Program-made: the position numbers and the translations under genes | IMG/VR virus record: IMGVR_UViG_3300018466_000003 | Location: 1-49,179 of that record | Strand: one strand, 5' to 3' | DNA: 49,179 nucleotides | Origin: a virus | The notes under the pieces: generated by a model | Database searches by the model: none | Told to the model about the DNA's origin: nothing | What the model saw: the letters and a program-made list of their open reading frames with translations, nothing else | In this document: in pieces, positions 20,995 to 34,198 of the stretch | How positions within the stretch are numbered: the first letter of the stretch is position 1 | Layout of the letters: each line of letters begins with the position of its first letter

Positions 20995-21444
20995 CTACCC
21001 AGCCCGGCGCGCGCCCCCATGCGGCCGTTGCGGCCGGTCGTGTGAGGCGTCCCACGACAAGTGAGGCGCGCAGGCATTGTGTTCGGCATACACCGCGATC
21101 CCATAGGCGCACATGCGATCCGCGAACTCGGCACGCTCGCGCGGGTCCCGGCTGATTTGATCCCAGTCGTAGATCACCAGCGCGTCCGGTTGCTGACGCG
21201 CCAAGTACGAGAACACGCGGCGCATCGACGGCCGGTCCAACTTCACGCGCGGCCCTACCGCTGGCCCCTCATCGAGGAACACCGCGTCAACGCTCAGCCC
21301 GTGGTCCAGGCAGATCTGATGACACGCCGTCTCACTGCGCGTCGACGGCTTCTTCTGGCCGTGCTGCACCGGCAGCACCACCACGGCCCGCAAACCAGCC
21401 GGGTTGTCTGGCAGAGGCGCGGTCGTGCTGGTCGTGTACGCCAT
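20995..21444 (-). CDS. Serine-recombinase-like protein lacking the catalytic serine
   Basis: Encodes 149 aa from ATG 21444, first gene of the leftward operon. It follows a resolvase N-terminal domain along its length: LRAVVVLPVQHGQKKPSTRS where recombinases have the R-x-x-Y-x-R-V-S-x-x-x-Q start; DHGLSVDAVFLDEG; RPSMRRVFSYLARQQPD; and ALVIYDWDQISRDPRERAEF, which matches the VxxLDRLSRD block. The YxRxS motif is replaced by LPVQ, so strand cleavage is not expected. It is much shorter than an integrase. It may bind recombinase or DNA as a regulator; that is inference. Confidence 0.65.
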   Translation of the reverse strand: MAYTTSTTAPLPDNPAGLRAVVVLPVQHGQKKPSTRSETACHQICLDHGLSVDAVFLDEGPAVGPRVKLDRPSMRRVFSYLARQQPDALVIYDWDQISRDPRERAEFADRMCAYGIAVYAEHNACAPHLSWDASHDRPQRPHGGARRAG

Positions 21445-23020: not shown

Positions 23021-23722
23021 TCACGCTCGTGACCCACGATCAGCGCACGCTGTGTGCTCGCAATACCCCGCCCCGAAAGGCGAGAGTTCTTCTGGCAGGT
23101 CAGCGAACGCCAATGCGGCGGCAGTCGCTAGTCGTTCCTGCCAGTCATAGAACCTCAGGCAGGGCGTGAAGCCCCGCATCCTGAGGAACCTCAAGTGCGC
23201 CAACGACAACAGCACCGACGGCGGAGTGTCCAGCGCACGGCACAGCTCGACGAGACCGCGTGGTCCAGGCACCGCTCGACCGGTCTCGTAGTGGCCTACG
23301 ACATCCCAGCCGAGGCTGATCCTGTGCGTGATGTGTTGGCGGCCGACACCCTTCCTCGTGCGCACCTCGGCTAGCGCATCACCGAGCACGCGCGCGTACG
23401 CGGCCTCACCCTCGCTGCAAACGTCCTTGCTGACGTACACGGCCGCACGGCCACGCAGATCAACCACACCGGTCAGGAATGCCTCCGTCGGCCGGTACAG
23501 GTTCCCTCTGAGGGTCGTTCGGTGAACCGCCCCGGCAAGCGACAGACGCAACAGCCTGCGCTGTGCCCGTGTCTGAGTCGCCCCTGTGGCGTCGCGGATC
23601 TCCCGAAGCGTCAGCCACTCATTCGGGCGCTGCGCGAAGGCGTCCAGCAGCGACTCTGTGAGACGGCCGAGATTGCCATCTAGTCCAGGGGTCACTGTCC
23701 CGTGATGTACCAACGTGATCAA
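23021..23722 (-). CDS. Two-domain regulator: winged helix plus XRE-type HTH
   Basis: Encodes 233 aa. Residues ~20-75 form a winged-helix domain (LLDAFAQRPNEWLTLREIRDATGATQTRAQRRLLRLSLAG). Residues ~110-175 form a Cro/C1-like HTH (LAEVRTRKGVGRQHITHRISLGWDVVGHYETGRAVPGPRGLVELCRALDTPP). The TTG at 23722 is the first possible start and lies 5 nt after a TATAAG box at 23727-23732, suggesting a nearly leaderless transcript. A GTG at 23695 is an alternative. Probably a phage regulator expressed in lysogens. Confidence 0.65.
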   Translation of the reverse strand: MITLVHHGTVTPGLDGNLGRLTESLLDAFAQRPNEWLTLREIRDATGATQTRAQRRLLRLSLAGAVHRTTLRGNLYRPTEAFLTGVVDLRGRAAVYVSKDVCSEGEAAYARVLGDALAEVRTRKGVGRQHITHRISLGWDVVGHYETGRAVPGPRGLVELCRALDTPPSVLLSLAHLRFLRMRGFTPCLRFYDWQERLATAAALAFADLPEELSPFGAGYCEHTACADRGSRA

Positions 23723-23811: not shown

Positions 23812-24222
23812 TCACACCCGCGCCAGAGCGTGCCGCCGTCGCGTGCGCTCGACTGCGCGCCGACGGGGCAACGCCCGGTCGTACTGAACGATCATCTCAA
23901 TGAACCGGCGATCAACCGGCAACGGACCCAACTCCGCACGCGCGGTCGCGTCGCGTGACGCGACCGCCACACGTGCGAAGAACTCCACCGGATTCGCGTC
24001 GTATTCGCCGCAGAACGTGACGACCAAGCTGATCGACGGCTTCGCTTCGCCGGACTCGTACCGGGACATCTGGTTGCGCAGCACACCATGCGTGCGCGCC
24101 ACGTCGATCTGCGTCTTACCCGCGTGCAACCGCAACTGACGCAGCATCTGGCCCAGCACCACGCAGTAGGGCAGCGCGTCACCATCCGGTGCGGCCCACC
24201 ATTTCGCGTGCGTCGTCATCAA
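23812..24222 (-). CDS. XRE-family transcriptional regulator
   Basis: Encodes 136 aa from ATG 24222 (a second ATG follows at once), with GAGAGGAAGAG upstream. Residues ~22-80 are a Cro/C1-type HTH: LGQMLRQLRLHAGKTQIDVARTHGVLRNQMSRYESGEAKPSI then SLVVTFCGEYDANPVEFF. The C-terminal ~50 residues are Arg-rich and carry no peptidase or ligand domain. Last gene of a four-gene leftward operon that ends at a strong terminator. Confidence 0.8.
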   Translation of the reverse strand: MMTTHAKWWAAPDGDALPYCVVLGQMLRQLRLHAGKTQIDVARTHGVLRNQMSRYESGEAKPSISLVVTFCGEYDANPVEFFARVAVASRDATARAELGPLPVDRRFIEMIVQYDRALPRRRAVERTRRRHALARV

Positions 24223-24635
24223 CTCTTCCTCTCAGTCGGATCATGGTCTTCGGCGGCCGGTCCATCCGGGACAGCGTCCGGCAGCTGGTAGAGATCGACG
24301 TACGGCAACGGCAAGCCCAACTCCTTTGCCTCATCACGCAACAGGCGCTCACCGGTGCCGTGGACACGCTCGATCTCGGCGCGGATCACACGGACGGCGT
24401 GCGCCGCACCGCGACGCGTCAGCAGGTACCCGACGCTGCGATCACGCGGGCCCTTCAAGGTGAGTAGCTCGAAGTGCAACAGGTTCGCGATGATCAGCCA
24501 CACCGTCGGCAACGGCACCTTCCCGCCCAGTTGCGGAAACAGGTCCTGCACCGGGTGCAACGCACCCTTCGCGTTGCACAGCACCAGCAACACCAGCGCC
24601 CGCTGACGCGACGTCGGCAACCCGTCACCAGCCAT
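24219..24635 (-). CDS. Winged-helix (PadR/MarR-like) protein
   Basis: Encodes 138 aa from ATG 24635. The N-terminal ~85 residues read as a winged helix: TSRQRALVLLVLCNAKGALHPVQ, LFPQLGGKVPLPTVWLIIANLLHFELLTL, GYLLTRRGAAHA. A helical C-terminal part follows (VIRAEIERVHGTGERLLRDEAKELGLPLP). It overlaps both neighbours by a few bases, so all are co-translated. Likely a DNA binder; target unknown. Confidence 0.6.
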   Translation of the reverse strand: MAGDGLPTSRQRALVLLVLCNAKGALHPVQDLFPQLGGKVPLPTVWLIIANLLHFELLTLKGPRDRSVGYLLTRRGAAHAVRVIRAEIERVHGTGERLLRDEAKELGLPLPYVDLYQLPDAVPDGPAAEDHDPTERKS

Positions 24636-25131
24636 CGACGCCACCGCCGGTAGCGGGACGCTCAGACGACGCCACAGGCCTACGCGACAGCGCGACCGTC
24701 CCCGTGTCCGTGATCCAGTACCCAGCACCGGCGCCCTGCACAGCGAAGTCGATCAGGCCCAACCGGATGAGTTCCTTCAGCGCCAACGTCACCTCCTCCG
24801 GCGCGCCCCGCTCAACAAGGGAGCTAAGCGGCACCCGATGATCCGGGCTGGACCCCTCCAGCGTCGACAGAATCCCGGCGCCGTGAACGTCCACCGCAGA
24901 CAGCCGGGCTACCGCATCGGCCCGCAACCCTTGTGCAACCCGTTCGAGGTCCTCCACCAGTGACAGCTGATTGACCGCGCTCATCCCCGCATACGGGTCG
25001 CCGTTGAGCATGCGCTGTAGCCCGTTGTTGTAGTTCGCGAAGCGCTGGTTGATCTGCCTCATGGTCCCGAGAGCAGCGCGGTTCGCCGAAGCTCTGTCGC
25101 TGGTGCTCTCCCAGTCAGTGTCGTCACTCAT
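24625..25131 (-). CDS. Coiled-coil plus winged-helix protein
   Basis: Encodes 168 aa from ATG 25131. Residues 1-~85 are helical (SDRASANRAALGTMRQINQRFANYNNGLQRML; NQLSLVEDLERVAQGLRAD). Residues ~95-155 suggest a winged helix (VPLSSLVERGAPEEVTLALKELIRLGLIDFAVQGAGAGYWITDTGTVAL). It overlaps the next gene by 11 bases. It may pair with the winged-helix protein encoded downstream. Confidence 0.55.
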   Translation of the reverse strand: MSDDTDWESTSDRASANRAALGTMRQINQRFANYNNGLQRMLNGDPYAGMSAVNQLSLVEDLERVAQGLRADAVARLSAVDVHGAGILSTLEGSSPDHRVPLSSLVERGAPEEVTLALKELIRLGLIDFAVQGAGAGYWITDTGTVALSRRPVASSERPATGGGVDGW

Positions 25132-25286
25132 GGGAGCCACCTGGCCCGACGCCTACGCCCGAACGCCCCTGACCTGTTGTAGCGCGAGAGAGCAGCGTTC
25201 CCGAGCCTTATCCGAACTGCGATGACGCTCAGCCCTACGACCCCGGTGACGAACACCGTCGTTGCGATCACTTGCACATCGATCAC
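25128..25286 (-). CDS. Small membrane protein leading the XRE operon
   Basis: Encodes 52 aa from GTG 25286, or 49 aa from GTG 25277, which is better spaced from GGGAAGGG. One hydrophobic helix (VIATTVFVTGVVGLSVIAVRI) is followed by a basic tail (RYNRSGAFGRRRRARWLP). Its TGA overlaps the next ATG (ATGA). It gives a membrane component to an otherwise DNA-binding operon. Confidence 0.55.
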   Translation of the reverse strand: MIDVQVIATTVFVTGVVGLSVIAVRIRLGNAALSRYNRSGAFGRRRRARWLP

Positions 25287-25396
25287 CCTTCCCACCGACT
25301 AGGGCCGATGGGGTTCAACGGGGTGCGCGAAGACGCCCCCGCGTCGGGTGCGCGACGACGCTCCCGGTCACCTCACCAGCGTGAACCCACTATGCC

Positions 25397-25455
25397 CTGT
25401 ACCGTACAGAGTTGCATTGTCTGATCGGGTGAAGGTTCAGGAATCGGGTACAACG
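25397..25455. promoter_or_regulatory. Operator/promoter region of the DUF5753 regulator
   Basis: The divergent gap 25287-25481 contains the perfect palindrome CTGTACCGTACAG at 25397-25409, the 11-mer TGATCGGGTGA at 25422-25432 (also at 21547-21557) and GAATCGGGTACAACG at 25441-25455. The last matches 14 of 15 bases at 28796-28810 in the operator before the excisionase-like gene. GTAC-containing half-sites seem to be the common element. Autoregulation by the XRE-DUF5753 protein is the simplest reading, but untested. Confidence 0.45.
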
Positions 25456-25481
25456 CAGGGTGGTCGATTAGGGTGACTGGT

Positions 25482-26354
25482 ATGGCTGATGGCACACCAC
25501 GGGCGCGACGGCGGATTGGGCGCCTCGTGGAGACGTACATCCCGAAGGGGATGACACACCAAGCTCTTGCGGACGCCATCGGCGTACGGCGCCAGACAAT
25601 CTCGCGGATCATCAGCGGTGAAACTCTCGTGCAGTGGCCGACCATCGCCGCTGCACTCCTAGAACTGAGTGCACCGTACGAGGTGATCCGGCAAGCGAAG
25701 CTCGAACACGAGAACGCGGCAATCACTTTCGCGACGATCGAGCACGCACGCGACTTGAAACCGAAGTATCGCAACTTCCGTGCCGATGAAGGCGAAGCGT
25801 GGCAGGAACGCACGTTTGACCCGTCACTGATCACCGGTCTGGCGCAGTCAGAAGAGTACGCGTTGCATTGCGCCCGTGCCGCGTGGCGACGCATCGAAGG
25901 TGAAACGTGGAACGAAAAGGCGTCCGCCGAGCGCCGAAACCGGCAAGCGATCCTGTACCGCGAAAAGGCCCCGCTCAAGCTGCACGCGCTCATCGAAGAG
26001 AACGCGCTGTACCGCATCGTCGGAAGCGCACAGGTCACGCGTGACGCACTCGACTACCTGCTACGCCTGGTCAGCGACCAGGACAACGTCTCGGTACAGG
26101 TCGTACCACGGGACGTGCCCGCGTTCGGCGCGTACAACCCGATCGTCCTGCTGGACTTCGACGACCCCCAAGAACCTCTCGGCGTGTTCATTGAAGGTTG
26201 GTCGGGGATCGACCAAATCGACCCGGCCAACGCCAAGGAAATGGATGTCCTGCGGAACGTCTGGGATGACGTGGCAGGGATCGCATTGAGCGCGGACGAC
26301 TCAATGCGAGCGATCGAAAAGGCAAGGGACAAGGTGAGCAAGCTATGCATCTGA
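25482..26354 (+). CDS. XRE regulator with DUF5753 domain (WhiJ/Scr1-type)
   Basis: Encodes 290 aa from ATG 25482; a GTG at 25473 would add three residues but has no spaced ribosome site, whereas AGGG lies eight bases before the ATG. Residues ~20-75 are an HTH (GMTHQALADAIGVRRQTISRIISGETLVQWPTIAAALLEL). Residues ~95-275 match DUF5753: FDPSLITGLAQSEEYA, RRNRQAILYREKAPLKLHALIEENALYRIVG, DNVSVQVVP. In Streptomyces this family (WhiJ-like, Scr1) pairs with small DUF397 proteins and controls development or acts as a TA-like module. A DUF397 gene overlaps its stop here. Such pairs are normally chromosomal. Confidence 0.85.
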   Translation: MADGTPRARRRIGRLVETYIPKGMTHQALADAIGVRRQTISRIISGETLVQWPTIAAALLELSAPYEVIRQAKLEHENAAITFATIEHARDLKPKYRNFRADEGEAWQERTFDPSLITGLAQSEEYALHCARAAWRRIEGETWNEKASAERRNRQAILYREKAPLKLHALIEENALYRIVGSAQVTRDALDYLLRLVSDQDNVSVQVVPRDVPAFGAYNPIVLLDFDDPQEPLGVFIEGWSGIDQIDPANAKEMDVLRNVWDDVAGIALSADDSMRAIEKARDKVSKLCI

Positions 26355-26524
26355 CAGGCCCCGCATGGCGCAAGAGCAGGCGGAGCAGCACGGACGCACA
26401 GTGCGTCCTGGTCCACAGTTCGCTGACGCTAGCGGGCGACACCAAGGACCCGGAAGGGAATTCCATCCCGATCACGCCCGAGTTCATGCGCGCGGTCAAG
26501 GCGGGTCAGTTCGACCCCCGATAG
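26345..26524 (+). CDS. DUF397-like partner protein
   Basis: Encodes 59 aa from ATG 26345, overlapping the upstream stop by 10 bases. The sequence follows DUF397: AWRKSRRSSTDAQCVLVHSS (usual W-x-KSS-x-S...CVEVA), AGDTKDPEGNSIPIT (usual RDSKDPxGPxLxF) and FMRAVKAGQFD. These proteins are the expected partners of XRE-DUF5753 regulators and are thought to antagonise or modulate them. A strong terminator follows at 26541. The tight overlap supports joint function. Confidence 0.8.
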   Translation: MHLTGPAWRKSRRSSTDAQCVLVHSSLTLAGDTKDPEGNSIPITPEFMRAVKAGQFDPR

Positions 26525-26540
26525 GGACACGCTAGATAGG

Positions 26541-26577
26541 ACGGCCCCCCGGTCACTCACGTTGACCGGGGGGCCGT
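26541..26577 (+). terminator. Terminator after the DUF397 gene
   Basis: Fifteen-bp perfect GC-rich stem (arms 26541-26555 and 26563-26577), 7-nt loop, then TTTG on the + strand. Closes the DUF5753/DUF397 operon. Confidence 0.8.
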
Positions 26578-26644
26578 TTGAATCCTAAGGGGCCACGGTC
26601 AGACCACGCACCGCGCGACGGCCCAGCACCGTAGGCTGAAACAG

Positions 26645-26685
26645 CACGGGACCCGAGGAACGCACCCCGTTCCTCGGGTCCCGTG
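26645..26685. terminator. Terminator between convergent genes
   Basis: Eighteen-bp perfect stem (26645-26662 with 26668-26685), 5-nt loop. It lies 13 bp beyond the stop of the leftward gene at 26699-26890; reading leftward, GCTGTTTCAG follows. Probably serves the leftward gene, with a second barrier for rightward transcripts. Confidence 0.75.
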
Positions 26686-26698
26686 TCCATCTGTGGCA

Positions 26699-26890
26699 CT
26701 ACGCGGCGGTGATCATCGCCACGTCGCCGATCTCGCGCCGGTCGATCTCGCAGCGCCACGCCAACACCAGCGTCACCAGCTCATCGTCTGCCTCCTCCGG
26801 CGTCAGCAGCACGACCGCCGCGCCCAGCCGATCAAGCAACCGGTCATCAGCTGTCGACGCGCACTCGTCAGGGTCCCCGTAGAGATCCAT
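26699..26890 (-). CDS. Small acidic protein next to attP
   Basis: Encodes 63 aa from ATG 26890, with GGAGGAG nine bases upstream: MDLYGDPDECASTADDRLLD then RLGAAVVLLTPEEADDELVTLVLAWRCEIDRREIG. Short acidic proteins with DDxLLDxLG...DDxLxxxLxxWRxEID are widespread in actinophages, often beside integrases. Function unknown; a role as recombination directionality or integrase partner cannot be excluded. It is divergent from the integrase across the attP candidate. Confidence 0.65.
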   Translation of the reverse strand: MDLYGDPDECASTADDRLLDRLGAAVVLLTPEEADDELVTLVLAWRCEIDRREIGDVAMITAA

Positions 26891-26961
26891 CGGACTCACC
26901 TCCTCCCCGCCGGTAGCCACGCTGACCACCCGCAGCGAAGGGTTCGAGCCGCTGACCAGCG

Positions 26962-26979
26962 GCGTTACACCGGTAACGC
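26962..26979. promoter_or_regulatory. Short dyad upstream of integrase
   Basis: GCGTTAC-ACCG-GTAACGC, a 7-bp stem with a 4-bp centre, in the gap between the acidic gene and the attP candidate. It could be an operator for either divergent gene. Confidence 0.35.
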
Positions 26980-27025
26980 GGTCGCCCCGCCGCGCGATAC
27001 AGGCCAGCGAAGCTGACCCAACGAG

Positions 27026-27075
27026 GTGCATTACAACCCGGTAGTGGTCTTGCCCACTCGGCGGTTGTAATGCAC
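27026..27075. other. Candidate attP site of the serine integrase
   Basis: A 50-bp imperfect inverted repeat: arms GTGCATTACAACC (27026-27038) and GGTTGTAATGCAC (27063-27075) are perfectly complementary, and an inner AGTGG-x-C / G-x-CCACT pair adds symmetry. The exact centre is TT at 27050-27051. Length, symmetry and position 20 bp before the integrase start match attP sites of large serine integrases, in which the enzyme dimer binds each half and exchanges at a central dinucleotide. No competing long dyad is seen nearby. Confidence 0.7.
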
Positions 27076-27094
27076 ATGGAGGAGTATCCGCGCC

Positions 27095-28693
27095 ATGGGC
27101 ACCACCACCGCCGTCCGCGCCGTCATCTACCTGCGACTTTCCGATCTGCGACTGATCGAACCTGGGCCCGACGGGATCGAGAAAGCGTTCTGCGCGCGTG
27201 AGAAGGATCTGCGCGAACTGGCCAAGCGTGTAGGCGCGACGGTCGTCAAGGTCATCCGTGAGAACGACCTCCGTTCCCGTGGCAAGGGACGGCAACAGGG
27301 CGTGTCCGCGTTCAAGCGCAAGAAGATCACCTTGCCGGACGGGCGCGAGACGTGGCGCGTGATCCGCAAGGGCTTCGATGAGATCCTCCGGGACCTGTGG
27401 GTGGGCACCGTGACGTTGCTGCTCACCGAAGACCTGGACCGGATGGTGCGTGACCCGCGTGACCTCGAAGACCTGATCGAGGTAGCGGAACGGCGTGGCA
27501 TTAGTGCCCGGTCGCTGAGCGGAAGCCTCACTCTCACGAACGGCGGCACCGATTCTGAGATCACCATGGCGCGCATCATGGTGACGATGGCAAACAAGTC
27601 GAGCCGCGACACGGCGCGGCGTGTATCTGAGGCGCGGCGGCGCGCGGCAGAGAACAACCAGCCGACCGGCGGGGGCCGCAAGTTCGGGTTCGAGATCGAC
27701 GGCATGACCCCCATTCCCGCCGAAGCCGCCGTTGTCCTGGACTGCTCGACGCGTGTCCTGCAAATCGACGCTAAGGCGAAAGAGAAGAACCCCAACACGA
27801 CGAAGCTCACTTCGCTCCGGTCGTTGGCGTTGGAACTCCGCGCGGGTGACGTACCGACTGTGACCGGTGCGCAATGGTCAGCCGAGACGCTGCGGGACAT
27901 TCTGCTCCGTCCGCGCAACGCCGGAATCACCGTCCACCTTGGCGAGGAACTAGGACGTTTCACGTCGGACCCGATCGTCCCCGAAGACATCTATCGCGCT
28001 GTTGTCGCGTTGCTGACCGATCCGTCCCGCACGACCGGTTCCGGACCGGCGGCGAAATGGCAGGGCTCCGGCGTGTACCTGTGTGGCCGGTGCGATGACG
28101 GCGAGACGTACATGGAAGCGACCGGCGGCGGCACCGCTTGTGTCCCGTACTACCGGTGCGAGGGACACAACCACGTCCGCCGGACGTCTTCCTACGTTGA
28201 CGAGATGGTGTCTGCCGCCGTGGTCGCGCGGTTGTCCCGCGCGGACGCGGTCGACTTGATTCCGACCGTGGACGTACCCGACGTAGACGTGCCCGGATTG
28301 CAGGCTGAGAGCGCCCGTATCCGCGCAAGCTTGAAGAGCTTGGGCGGAATGCTGGTGCGGGGCCTCATCGATGAGGACCAGCTTCTGGACGCCACCCAGG
28401 TAGGGCGTAAGCGGCTTGCTGAGATCAAAGATCTGCTCGACGTGACGATCGTGGAATCGCCCCTCGCGCCGCTGATCGGCGTTGACGACGTGGCGGCCGA
28501 ATGGGCAAAGCAGCCGGTGCACATCCGGCGCGAGATCATCAGCACCCTGTTCGTGGTGAAGATCCTGCCGACCGTGAAGGGTGCCAAGTTCGTGCCGGGC
28601 ACCCGGTTCTCGCGGTCGTCGGTGGTGATCGAGCCGAAGCCCGCGCCGGTGTGCGTGACGGCGCCGGTGGAGACGCTGCCCGCCGCCGCGTAG
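27095..28693 (+). CDS. Large serine integrase
   Basis: Encodes 532 aa; ATG 27095 is preceded by GGAGGAG. Residues 8-~165 are the resolvase catalytic domain: AVIYLRLSDL carries the nucleophile Ser16, and LLLTEDLDRMVRDPRDLEDLI matches the LDRLxRD block. A recombinase domain follows (GRKFGFEIDGMTPIPAEAAVV; WSAETLRDILLRPRNAG). A zinc ribbon has Cys330, Cys333, Cys349 and Cys355, and a coiled coil lies near residues 405-445. It inserts phage DNA into a host attB site without host factors; excision needs a directionality factor. A terminator follows at 28701. Confidence 0.95.
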   Translation: MGTTTAVRAVIYLRLSDLRLIEPGPDGIEKAFCAREKDLRELAKRVGATVVKVIRENDLRSRGKGRQQGVSAFKRKKITLPDGRETWRVIRKGFDEILRDLWVGTVTLLLTEDLDRMVRDPRDLEDLIEVAERRGISARSLSGSLTLTNGGTDSEITMARIMVTMANKSSRDTARRVSEARRRAAENNQPTGGGRKFGFEIDGMTPIPAEAAVVLDCSTRVLQIDAKAKEKNPNTTKLTSLRSLALELRAGDVPTVTGAQWSAETLRDILLRPRNAGITVHLGEELGRFTSDPIVPEDIYRAVVALLTDPSRTTGSGPAAKWQGSGVYLCGRCDDGETYMEATGGGTACVPYYRCEGHNHVRRTSSYVDEMVSAAVVARLSRADAVDLIPTVDVPDVDVPGLQAESARIRASLKSLGGMLVRGLIDEDQLLDATQVGRKRLAEIKDLLDVTIVESPLAPLIGVDDVAAEWAKQPVHIRREIISTLFVVKILPTVKGAKFVPGTRFSRSSVVIEPKPAPVCVTAPVETLPAAA

Positions 28694-28700
28694 CCCACCT

Positions 28701-28743
28701 CACAGGGACCCCCACCTGGTCATCCGGGTTGGGGGTCCCTGTG
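28701..28743 (+). terminator. Terminator after integrase
   Basis: Fourteen-bp perfect stem (arms 28701-28714 and 28730-28743) plus inner pairs, followed by GTGTAACG. Closes the integrase transcript. Confidence 0.7.
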
Positions 28744-28783
28744 TGTAACGGCGTGGCTCGCACCGGCGATCAGATCATCGTGT

Positions 28784-28812
28784 AACGTCGTACCCGAATC
28801 AGGTACAACGTT
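28784..28812. promoter_or_regulatory. Palindromic operator before the 28.8 kb operon
   Basis: Arms AACGT-c-GTACC (28784-28794) and GGTAC-a-ACGTT (28802-28812) surround a 7-bp centre, ten of eleven positions complementary. The right half repeats almost exactly at 25441-25455. It sits 26 bp before the GTG of the excisionase-like gene, where a repressor would block the promoter of the whole rightward operon. Confidence 0.6.
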
Positions 28813-28837
28813 CGAGAGTCAAGGGAGTGTGATCACA

Positions 28838-29512
28838 GTGGGAGTACTCGACCGGCGCGACGTCGCACGGTTGCGCGGCGTCAAGGCGGGCACGATCAAG
28901 GCCTACCAGCAGCGCTACCCCGAGGGGCACCCGTACGCGTTCCCCGTGCCGGACGACACGAAGAACGGTGGCCCCGTGTGGGATGAGTCGCGCGCCGACG
29001 AACTGCGCGCGTGGCAGGGTCGCGGACGCGGCACCGGCGGCGGCCGTCGGCGCAAGACGTCCGCCGGTGACACCCCCGCAACGGGCGCTGTGGCGCACGC
29101 TGCGCCCTCCACCCGTGAGGCGCAGCACGCACCGGCGCCGGTGACCGTGGACGTACCCGGCGCGTTCCACACGTTCCTATCCGGCACGGGCGGCGCACAG
29201 GGTGAGGACGGAGAGACGCCGTTTTTCTTGGCGTACTGCACCGCTAGGCGGGTGGCGCGGGGGCGTGGCTACACGCTGCGTCTGACGGTCCCGGCGTCCG
29301 ACGCGCGGGAAGTTCTAGGGGACTTGATCGTCTACGCGGAAGCGTGCATCAGCGCCAATCAGGACCAGGTGCACGAACCGGGCGCACGCTCCGAACTTGC
29401 CGCCGCCCATAAGGTTCTGGACCGGTGTCTGACGGCACAGCGCGGCTTGCTGCGCCGTTCTCGCACTCCCGCAAGGGGCGCTGAGTCGCACGCTGACGCG
29501 TCGAGCGGGTGA
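28838..29512 (+). CDS. Excisionase-like HTH protein
   Basis: Encodes 224 aa from GTG 28838, chosen because AAGGGAG lies ten bases upstream; GTG 28829 is too close to it. Residues 1-~65 are a MerR/excisionase-like winged helix: VLDRRDVARLRGVKAGTIKAYQQRYP, then FPVPDDTKNGGPVWDESRADELRAWQGRGRG. A Pro/Ala linker leads to a helical C-terminal domain. Small MerR-like proteins next to serine integrases sometimes act as recombination directionality factors, so this is a candidate, but it could equally be the operon regulator. Confidence 0.6.
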   Translation: MGVLDRRDVARLRGVKAGTIKAYQQRYPEGHPYAFPVPDDTKNGGPVWDESRADELRAWQGRGRGTGGGRRRKTSAGDTPATGAVAHAAPSTREAQHAPAPVTVDVPGAFHTFLSGTGGAQGEDGETPFFLAYCTARRVARGRGYTLRLTVPASDAREVLGDLIVYAEACISANQDQVHEPGARSELAAAHKVLDRCLTAQRGLLRRSRTPARGAESHADASSG

Positions 29513-33344: not shown

Positions 33345-33824
33345 TCACGCGCTGTCGTCATCCTGGCGCGGCGTCGGCGGCGGCAGCTGCCCGGTTGCGA
33401 TGCCGACCCACTCGACCAACGCCGCGAAACCCGGCACGGAGTCACGGAGCTTGCGCAGACCGGCGACCAGCTGCCGCGTGGTGACGTCGTCGAGCTTGCC
33501 CGCAGCTAGGTGCGCCGTCAGCAGCTCGACGGCCACGTCTGGCCGTCCCGCGTTCTCGAACTGCGTCGGCGTGATGCCCAGCGCACGCGCCAACTTGACC
33601 AGGGTCGCCGCTTTGGCCGCGTACGGGATGACCGCGCCGCTTGCGGCTCGGCTCTGACGCTCGCCGGTCTCGATCAGGTACAGCACGGAGTCGCTGAGAC
33701 CGGTCAGCTTCGTCACGTCGGGGCGCGACAGCCCTAGCTCGTCGCGCGTCTTGCGGATCAGGTCGCCGACGATCTTCGTCCGCAGGAAGTTCGCGGTCGG
33801 CTCATCCGGGGCGGCGCTGCTCAT
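33345..33824 (-). CDS. XRE-family repressor, immunity repressor candidate
   Basis: Encodes 159 aa from ATG 33824, with TAAGGTG upstream. Residues ~15-75 are a Cro/C1-type HTH: LIRKTRDELGLSRPDVTKLTGLSDSVLYLIETGERQSR, then AATLVKLARALGITPTQFE. The C-terminal half is helical without a protease dyad (LAAGKLDDVTTRQLVAGLRKLRDSVPGFAALVEWVG). It is divergent from the Cro-like gene at 33944 across 119 bp containing dyads, the classic lysis-lysogeny switch, and next to the early operon. That makes it the best immunity-repressor candidate among several regulators. Confidence 0.75.
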   Translation of the reverse strand: MSSAAPDEPTANFLRTKIVGDLIRKTRDELGLSRPDVTKLTGLSDSVLYLIETGERQSRAASGAVIPYAAKAATLVKLARALGITPTQFENAGRPDVAVELLTAHLAAGKLDDVTTRQLVAGLRKLRDSVPGFAALVEWVGIATGQLPPPTPRQDDDSA

Positions 33825-33837
33825 GCGGCGGCACCTT

Positions 33838-33943
33838 AGCGGGGGGGCCGCCACACCGCATTGGCACCCCCAACGGGGGAACCTGTGGACAAATCCCTTA
33901 CTTCTGCTGTCCAAAGTAAGTGACCCGGTCCTAATGTCACTTC
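33838..33943. promoter_or_regulatory. Operator region between repressor and Cro-like genes
   Basis: Contains AGCGGGGGGGCCGC (33838-33851, also at 21652-21665), an inverted pair CTTACTT/AAGTAAG and TGGACA/TGTCCA around 33885-33920, and TGTCCAAA followed by GTAAGTGACCCGGT (33908-33929), shared with 21533-21555. A possible -10 box TAATGT at 33932-33937 lies 7 nt from the Cro-like ATG, suggesting a leaderless or near-leaderless transcript. Confidence 0.6.
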
Positions 33944-34198
33944 ATGCCACAGAGGACGCGGGAACCTCGGGCAAGCCTCAACCACTCACCACAAGCGCTG
34001 CGGTGGATGCGCGACGCCAAGGGACTCCGTCAACGCGAACTCGCAGCAGCCGTAGGGATTTCCCGGTCATACCTGAGTGAACTTGAGTGCGGCACCCGAT
34101 CGGCACCGCCACACCTGATCAACAAACTCGCCGCCTACTTGCGTTGCGCGGCAACGATGCTGGAGCACCGGCACCCCGAACAGGACGCCGCCGCATGA
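33944..34198 (+). CDS. Cro-like XRE regulator
   Basis: Encodes 84 aa from ATG 33944. It is almost entirely an HTH: ALRWMRDAKGLRQRELAAAVGISRSYLSELECGTRSAPPHLINKLAAYLRC. Divergent from the repressor and first gene of the early operon, it corresponds to Cro in lambda-like switches. No upstream ribosome site is seen, in keeping with a very short leader. It overlaps the next gene (ATGA). Confidence 0.75.
   Translation: MPQRTREPRASLNHSPQALRWMRDAKGLRQRELAAAVGISRSYLSELECGTRSAPPHLINKLAAYLRCAATMLEHRHPEQDAAA

Follow-up and report, generated by a model that had tools for sequence, protein, structure and literature searches.

The window, by which we mean the whole 49,179-nt stretch analysed here, is a contig of a temperate siphovirus (IMG/VR record IMGVR_UViG_3300018466_000003) carrying a WhiJ-BldB-type gene pair, in which an XRE-DUF5753 regulator is followed by a small DUF397 protein. 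Sequence comparisons indicate that this is probably a host pair that was taken up from a bacterial chromosome along with the control region in front of it. It is probably neither an immunity repressor nor a toxin-antitoxin unit. Our preferred reading, in which we place about even confidence, is that the captured pair serves as an accessory regulator, autoregulated and acting on a divergent leftward operon at the lysogeny stage.

The gene pair and its genome setting

The window phage is a temperate phage of actinobacteria. Genes for the capsid protease, capsid, head-tail, major tail, tape-measure and endolysin proteins occupy 0.3-16 kb, while recombination and replication genes (RecET, Rep, DnaB) lie at 36-41 kb. 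The pair is followed by a gene for a serine integrase of 532 aa (27095-28693, plus strand; PF00239 and PF07508; phrog_95, 4e-44), and the first-pass annotation was thus right to describe a phage with such a pair beside its integrase. A related prophage in an IMG isolate genome (L109) encodes a capsid protein 81% identical to that of the window; no DUF5753 gene was found in the relatives identified through the capsid, most of which are fragments. In the leftward region, the minus-strand ORF at 20995-21444 encodes only 149 aa and matches the resolvase N-terminal domain (PF00239, 30.7 bits).

A divergent repressor (minus strand) and Cro-like (plus strand) pair with HTH_31/HTH_3 matches, at 33345-34198, faces the RecET/Rep/DnaB early operon and, judging from this arrangement, is likely to be the main immunity switch. 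The WhiJ-type pair was also considered as a cI-type immunity repressor, which it probably is not in view of the separate pair at 33.3-34.2 kb.

The regulator (25482-26354, plus strand, 290 aa) matches the DUF5753 profile PF19054 over positions 2-177 of 178 with 105.9 bits (cut-off 23.4), its N-terminus matches HTH_3 with 28 bits (cut-off 23), and the protein matches phrog_9908, a family of DNA binding proteins, at 3e-28. Its start at ATG 25482, where it had first been set, agrees with an alignment in which MADGTPRAR corresponds to the MA-x-G-[TS]-T-R of twenty chromosomal homologues; the upstream in-frame GTG at 25473 is a less likely start. The partner (26345-26524, plus strand, 59 aa) matches the DUF397 profile PF04149 with 27.5 bits, just above the cut-off of 24, and phrog_10815 weakly. 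These two PHROG families are those that the annotators of phage Samy assigned to its own pair, SAMYPH_90 and SAMYPH_91. The identification of a WhiJ/Scr1-type regulator with a DUF397 partner is therefore upheld by profile searches, and the module is complete and overlapping as claimed, with both genes on the same strand and sharing 10 nt (26345-26354). Two perfect hairpins lie 3' of it, at 26541-26577 (15-bp stem) and 26645-26685 (18-bp stem). As possible terminators they lend partial support to the claim that the module has a terminator of its own, but no T-run is present at either and a T-run terminator scan of 25200-28900 called none at the module. Between the hairpins and the probable attP lies a 63-aa minus-strand ORF with a good ribosome-binding site (26702-26891).

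DUF397 proteins are characterised by CxE and RDS motifs (PMC7159879). The window protein has CVL in place of CxE and GDT in place of RDS/RDT, whereas among 50 other partners of chromosomal, plasmid, viral and phage origin, 49 have CxE and 48 have an R-D/E-S/T motif; both are also missing in one viral contig, L127. Since BldB itself is a poor match to the DUF397 domain (PMC10294661), a divergent member of the family by profile, lacking its signature motifs, seems a fair name for the window protein, which may not work in the usual way. This loss bears on the proposal, made from gene neighbourhoods (PMC2701414, repeated in PMC7159879), that such pairs are type II toxin-antitoxin addiction units. 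Here the DUF397 protein would be the toxin and the XRE protein the antitoxin, stabilising the prophage or excluding other phages, and an overlapping two-gene operon that is mobile, and common on plasmids too, would suit such a unit. However, 14 Streptomyces coelicolor DUF397 proteins were overexpressed and not one proved toxic (PMC10364602), Scr1/Scr2 is presented as a positive regulator and not a toxin-antitoxin pair (PMC6262351, as cited in PMC10364602), and the window partner has lost its signature motifs. We consider this explanation very improbable, and the suggestion of a toxin-antitoxin-like unit in the first-pass annotation is disfavoured.

Chromosomal descent and the control region

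The nearest homologues that we found are chromosomal, with ~40% identity over the full length, and belong to one genus of the Pseudonocardiaceae, the family of Kibdelosporangium banguiense. An adjacent DUF397 gene was recovered for 18 of the 20 chromosomal copies read. When other genes of the window were looked for within ~10 kb of the chromosomal copies, none of those tested turned up, and the copies are therefore not relatives of this prophage; the window capsid has no homologue in 25 genomes of the genus with the closest DUF5753 copies. In a phylogeny of 63 proteins, a comparison that the first-pass annotation had proposed, the window regulator nests within the chromosomal clade, with support of 96/82 for the smallest set and 99/96 for the next; as the chromosomal sample was picked for closeness to the window, the tree gives the direction of nesting and not the host. 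Other viral and phage copies fall elsewhere in this tree, and the sequence comparisons suggest that phages captured such pairs separately.

The branch leading to the window regulator is long (1.04 changes per site), and its DNA specificity may for this reason have changed. The long branch and the lost DUF397 motifs would also fit a captured host pair that has lost its function and is decaying as a passenger. This is quite improbable in our view: both reading frames are intact with strong third-position G+C, the DUF5753 profile match is complete, and the promoter blocks have been kept.

The promoter/operator region (25397-25481, plus strand) matches those of the chromosomal homologues block by block and in the same order. 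It contains a 13-nt palindrome, CTGTACCGTACAG (25397-25409), the block TCGGGTGAAG (25425-25434), GAATCGGGTACAACG (25441-25455) and the block CAACGCAGGGTGG (25451-25463). The three promoter blocks of the chromosomal clade, TCGGGTGAAG, ACGCAGGGTGG and, shortly before the ATG, TTAGGGTGA, all occur in the right order within 60 bp of the start codon, and across the 49 kb the plus strand reaches equally high block scores at just 3, 6 and 3 positions. The TTAGGGTGA block contains the -10-like TAGGGT (25469-25474), 7 nt before ATG 25482, and the mRNA of the pair is probably leaderless; a sigma-70 promoter scan of 25200-28900 returned no promoter. The retention of these blocks points to capture of the pair with its own control region and, probably, to autoregulation. 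Further upstream, in the divergent intergenic region, a direct repeat read from the sequence, GGGTGCGCGA[A/C]GACGC (25321-25336 and 25346-25361, plus strand), is a candidate binding site only.

A second site had been named by the first-pass annotation, which proposed that the regulator binds both 25397-25455 and 28784-28812. Upstream of the gene at 28838 there is indeed a 25-nt imperfect palindrome, CGTCGTACCCGAATCAGGTACAACG (28786-28810), and the 15-mer GAATC[GA]GGTACAACG is common to 25441-25455 and 28796-28810 (14/15 bases identical) and occurs nowhere else in the 49 kb. This sharing carries little weight alone, because 35 of 300 random upstream regions (~12%) likewise gave a one-mismatch 15-mer match somewhere in the non-coding DNA. 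The site at 28786 also lacks the conserved promoter blocks. The two sites thus share the 15-mer as supposed, to an extent that chance may also produce, and 28786-28810 is a possible, weak candidate for a second operator.

The gene downstream of this palindrome (28838-29512, plus strand; start codon placed by the spacing of its ribosome-binding site) encodes a DNA-binding protein (phrog_597, 9e-6) whose winged-helix N-terminus looks AlpA/Xis-like by eye. The pair could be an extra lysogeny or excision switch, a role that the first-pass annotation had suggested in part, in which the regulator, bound at 25397-25455 and 28786-28810, would control this gene and hence excision. The 15-mer, exact in both upstream regions when R is allowed and lying in a palindrome at the second, speaks for this possibility, as does the placement of such pairs near the integrase in many phages. 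Against it stand the frequency of chance matches and the missing promoter blocks, as well as prophage L109, which has two homologues of the winged-helix protein (48-49% identity, with differing C-terminal parts) and in whose 19-kb record neither a serine integrase nor a relative of the DUF5753 protein was found. Furthermore, phage Austintatious has no integrase and keeps the pair, which is therefore not dependent on the integrase. We regard such a switch as decidedly unlikely.

Probable placement at the prophage end and recurrence in other phages

Between the pair and the serine integrase gene, immediately 5' of the latter, is a 50-bp inverted repeat (27026-27075) with 22-nt arms that are 82% complementary and a 6-nt centre (GTGCATTACAACCCGGTAGTGG TCTTGC CCACTCGGCGGTTGTAATGCAC). 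Its size, symmetry and place fit the attP of a serine integrase, and it is probably the intact attP of this phage. Recombination there would put the pair and the leftward operon at the end of the prophage opposite the integrase.

The integrase-side placement noted in the first-pass annotation recurs in other phages. Across the window and those viral records of at least 30 kb that have an integrase, 15 of 17 genomes have the DUF5753 gene no more than 10% of genome length away from an integrase, with distance taken around the circle and the nearer integrase used where there are two; a naive binomial estimate gives about 3e-9 to 7e-8, for records that are not fully independent. In prophages, whose ends may contain host DNA, the pair tends toward the end opposite the integrase (for example G429, G431, G433 and G453). 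A search for att direct repeats at prophage ends, an approach for which the cores of serine att sites are too short, gave a convincing result only in G453; its 23-bp terminal direct repeats enclose the module, which is at the far end from the integrase. In phage Samy, the integrase and the pair are separated by the annotated att repeat. A comparison of Austintatious (L161) with Ididsumtinwong (L160) shows that ~2.25 kb including the integrase is missing from the former just after the DUF5753/DUF397 pair; the DUF397 gene of Austintatious is seemingly present and unannotated.

Phage-borne pairs are more widespread than the first-pass annotation implied. Scanning viral contigs with an alignment of plasmid homologues yielded 29 DUF5753 loci, of which 21 are in records with a DUF397 gene, nearly always directly adjoining, and at least 20 viral contigs other than the window carry the pair. 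A search with a homologue from a Streptomyces plasmid matched 14 phage records, among them Darolandstone, Picard, Mojorita, Samy, Success, PIS 136 and Ididsumtinwong; the adjacent gene is annotated as DUF397 in Darolandstone, Picard, PIS 136 and Ididsumtinwong. Scans of viral contigs with single proteins and tblastn of phages had returned no close phage relatives of the module, negatives that reflect limited sensitivity, since the plasmid-derived alignment and query then found the 29 contigs and 14 phage records; an alignment built from ten divergent homologues varied too much to be useful for scanning. DUF5753/DUF397 pairs were found on actinomycete plasmids too. The window pair is therefore a good example of something already known, since such pairs are present in the sequenced phages Darolandstone, Picard, Samy, Success, PIS 136 and Ididsumtinwong; what is added here is the recurrent integrase- or att-side placement, the indication that phages acquired such pairs on separate occasions, and a partner without the signature motifs. 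A separate viral DUF5753 lineage (L135-L144) mostly comprises records with no DUF397 gene, and in two of these (L142 and L143) a different protein, of the ...FRHTAWRLET type, is encoded before the DUF5753 gene on the same strand, possibly representing another partner family.

The Streptomyces phages Darolandstone, Picard and Samy resemble the window in carrying the pair near a serine integrase and in having a separate repressor, namely an annotated repressor/cro in the first two and SAMYPH_32 in Samy, whose authors name a gene other than the pair as the immunity repressor (PMC11302927). Separate cI/cro pairs are present in Ididsumtinwong and Austintatious as well. None of the three phages gives a significant tblastn match to the window regulator, however, and their DUF397 proteins keep the CVE and RDS motifs, unlike that of the window. 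Darolandstone and Picard, moreover, encode a divergent abaA-like HATPase (HATPase_c_2) and thus have abaA-whiJ-bldB-like triads, the third gene of which is absent from the window.

The divergent operon and the proposed role of the pair

Leftward of the pair lie minus-strand ORFs that we infer to form an operon (25295-23021). The first (25128-25295) encodes a small hydrophobic protein with no Pfam match, not recognisably an abaA-like HATPase; the genes after it encode HTH proteins or unmatched ones. Two products look like winged-helix proteins and have no Pfam match (24625-25140 and 24219-24728), and they are followed by an XRE protein (23812-24222) and an HTH protein (23021-23722), the only two with Pfam HTH_31 matches. 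Relatives were not found in plasmids for the protein of 24219-24728, nor in phages for that of 23021-23722. We consider this operon a candidate target of the regulator. As two or more HTH proteins are encoded in it, a small regulatory cascade at the prophage end may start from the pair.

The closest characterised parallel is the iosA-whiJ9 locus of Streptomyces venezuelae, where the XRE-DUF5753 gene whiJ9 is directly followed by the small DUF397 gene bldB9 and where, as in the window, a divergent gene lies across an intergenic regulatory region (PMC10294661). WhiJ9, which is subject to autorepression, binds direct repeats in that region and is required to activate the divergent gene; BldB shows no DNA binding and forms hetero-oligomers with its paralogues (PMC10294661). 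The window pair differs in being phage-borne, in having a divergent gene that is not recognisably iosA or abaA, and in a DUF397 protein lacking the usual CVE and RDS. Scr1/Scr2 and other S. coelicolor XRE/DUF397 pairs have the same domain make-up and similar sizes (~290 aa and ~60 aa), but are chromosomal (PMC10364602).

By analogy with WhiJ9, the XRE-DUF5753 protein of our preferred reading would bind the shared intergenic region (25296-25481). After capture of the pair and its control region by a temperate actinophage, the regulator would repress its own promoter, with a probably leaderless transcript, and switch the leftward operon, which would itself encode accessory regulators at the end of the prophage. 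The DUF397 protein would not bind DNA; it would instead bind the regulator and tune it. Situated at the prophage end, the pair would then operate as a lysogeny-stage accessory regulator, apart from the cI/cro-like immunity switch.

A different outcome, in line with the effect on host development that the first-pass annotation thought possible, would be lysogenic conversion directed at the host, with the regulator or its partner entering the host WhiJ/BldB paralogue network and altering development or specialised metabolism. The closest relatives are host chromosomal pairs, BldB hetero-oligomerises with paralogues (PMC10294661), and in S. coelicolor both differentiation and the production of antibiotics change when XRE/DUF397 pairs are overexpressed (PMC10364602); placement at the prophage end suits a moron, and the abaA-like ATPase is even present in Darolandstone and Picard. 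The pair's own divergent phage operon is nevertheless the simpler target, and we think conversion unlikely, if worth keeping in mind. More speculatively, the motif-less DUF397 protein could be a decoy that hetero-oligomerises with host DUF397/WhiJ paralogues and does not perform their normal job, thereby rewiring host development in lysogens, with the att-adjacent placement keeping the pair expressed when integrated; we hold this idea to be doubtful.

Actinomycete genomes contain many WhiJ/BldB-type pairs. That such pairs recur near integrases in unrelated temperate phages, and are found on actinomycete plasmids as well, suggests their use and spread by mobile elements. One phage with one divergent operon and one partner offers a small, testable system for learning the role of such pairs.
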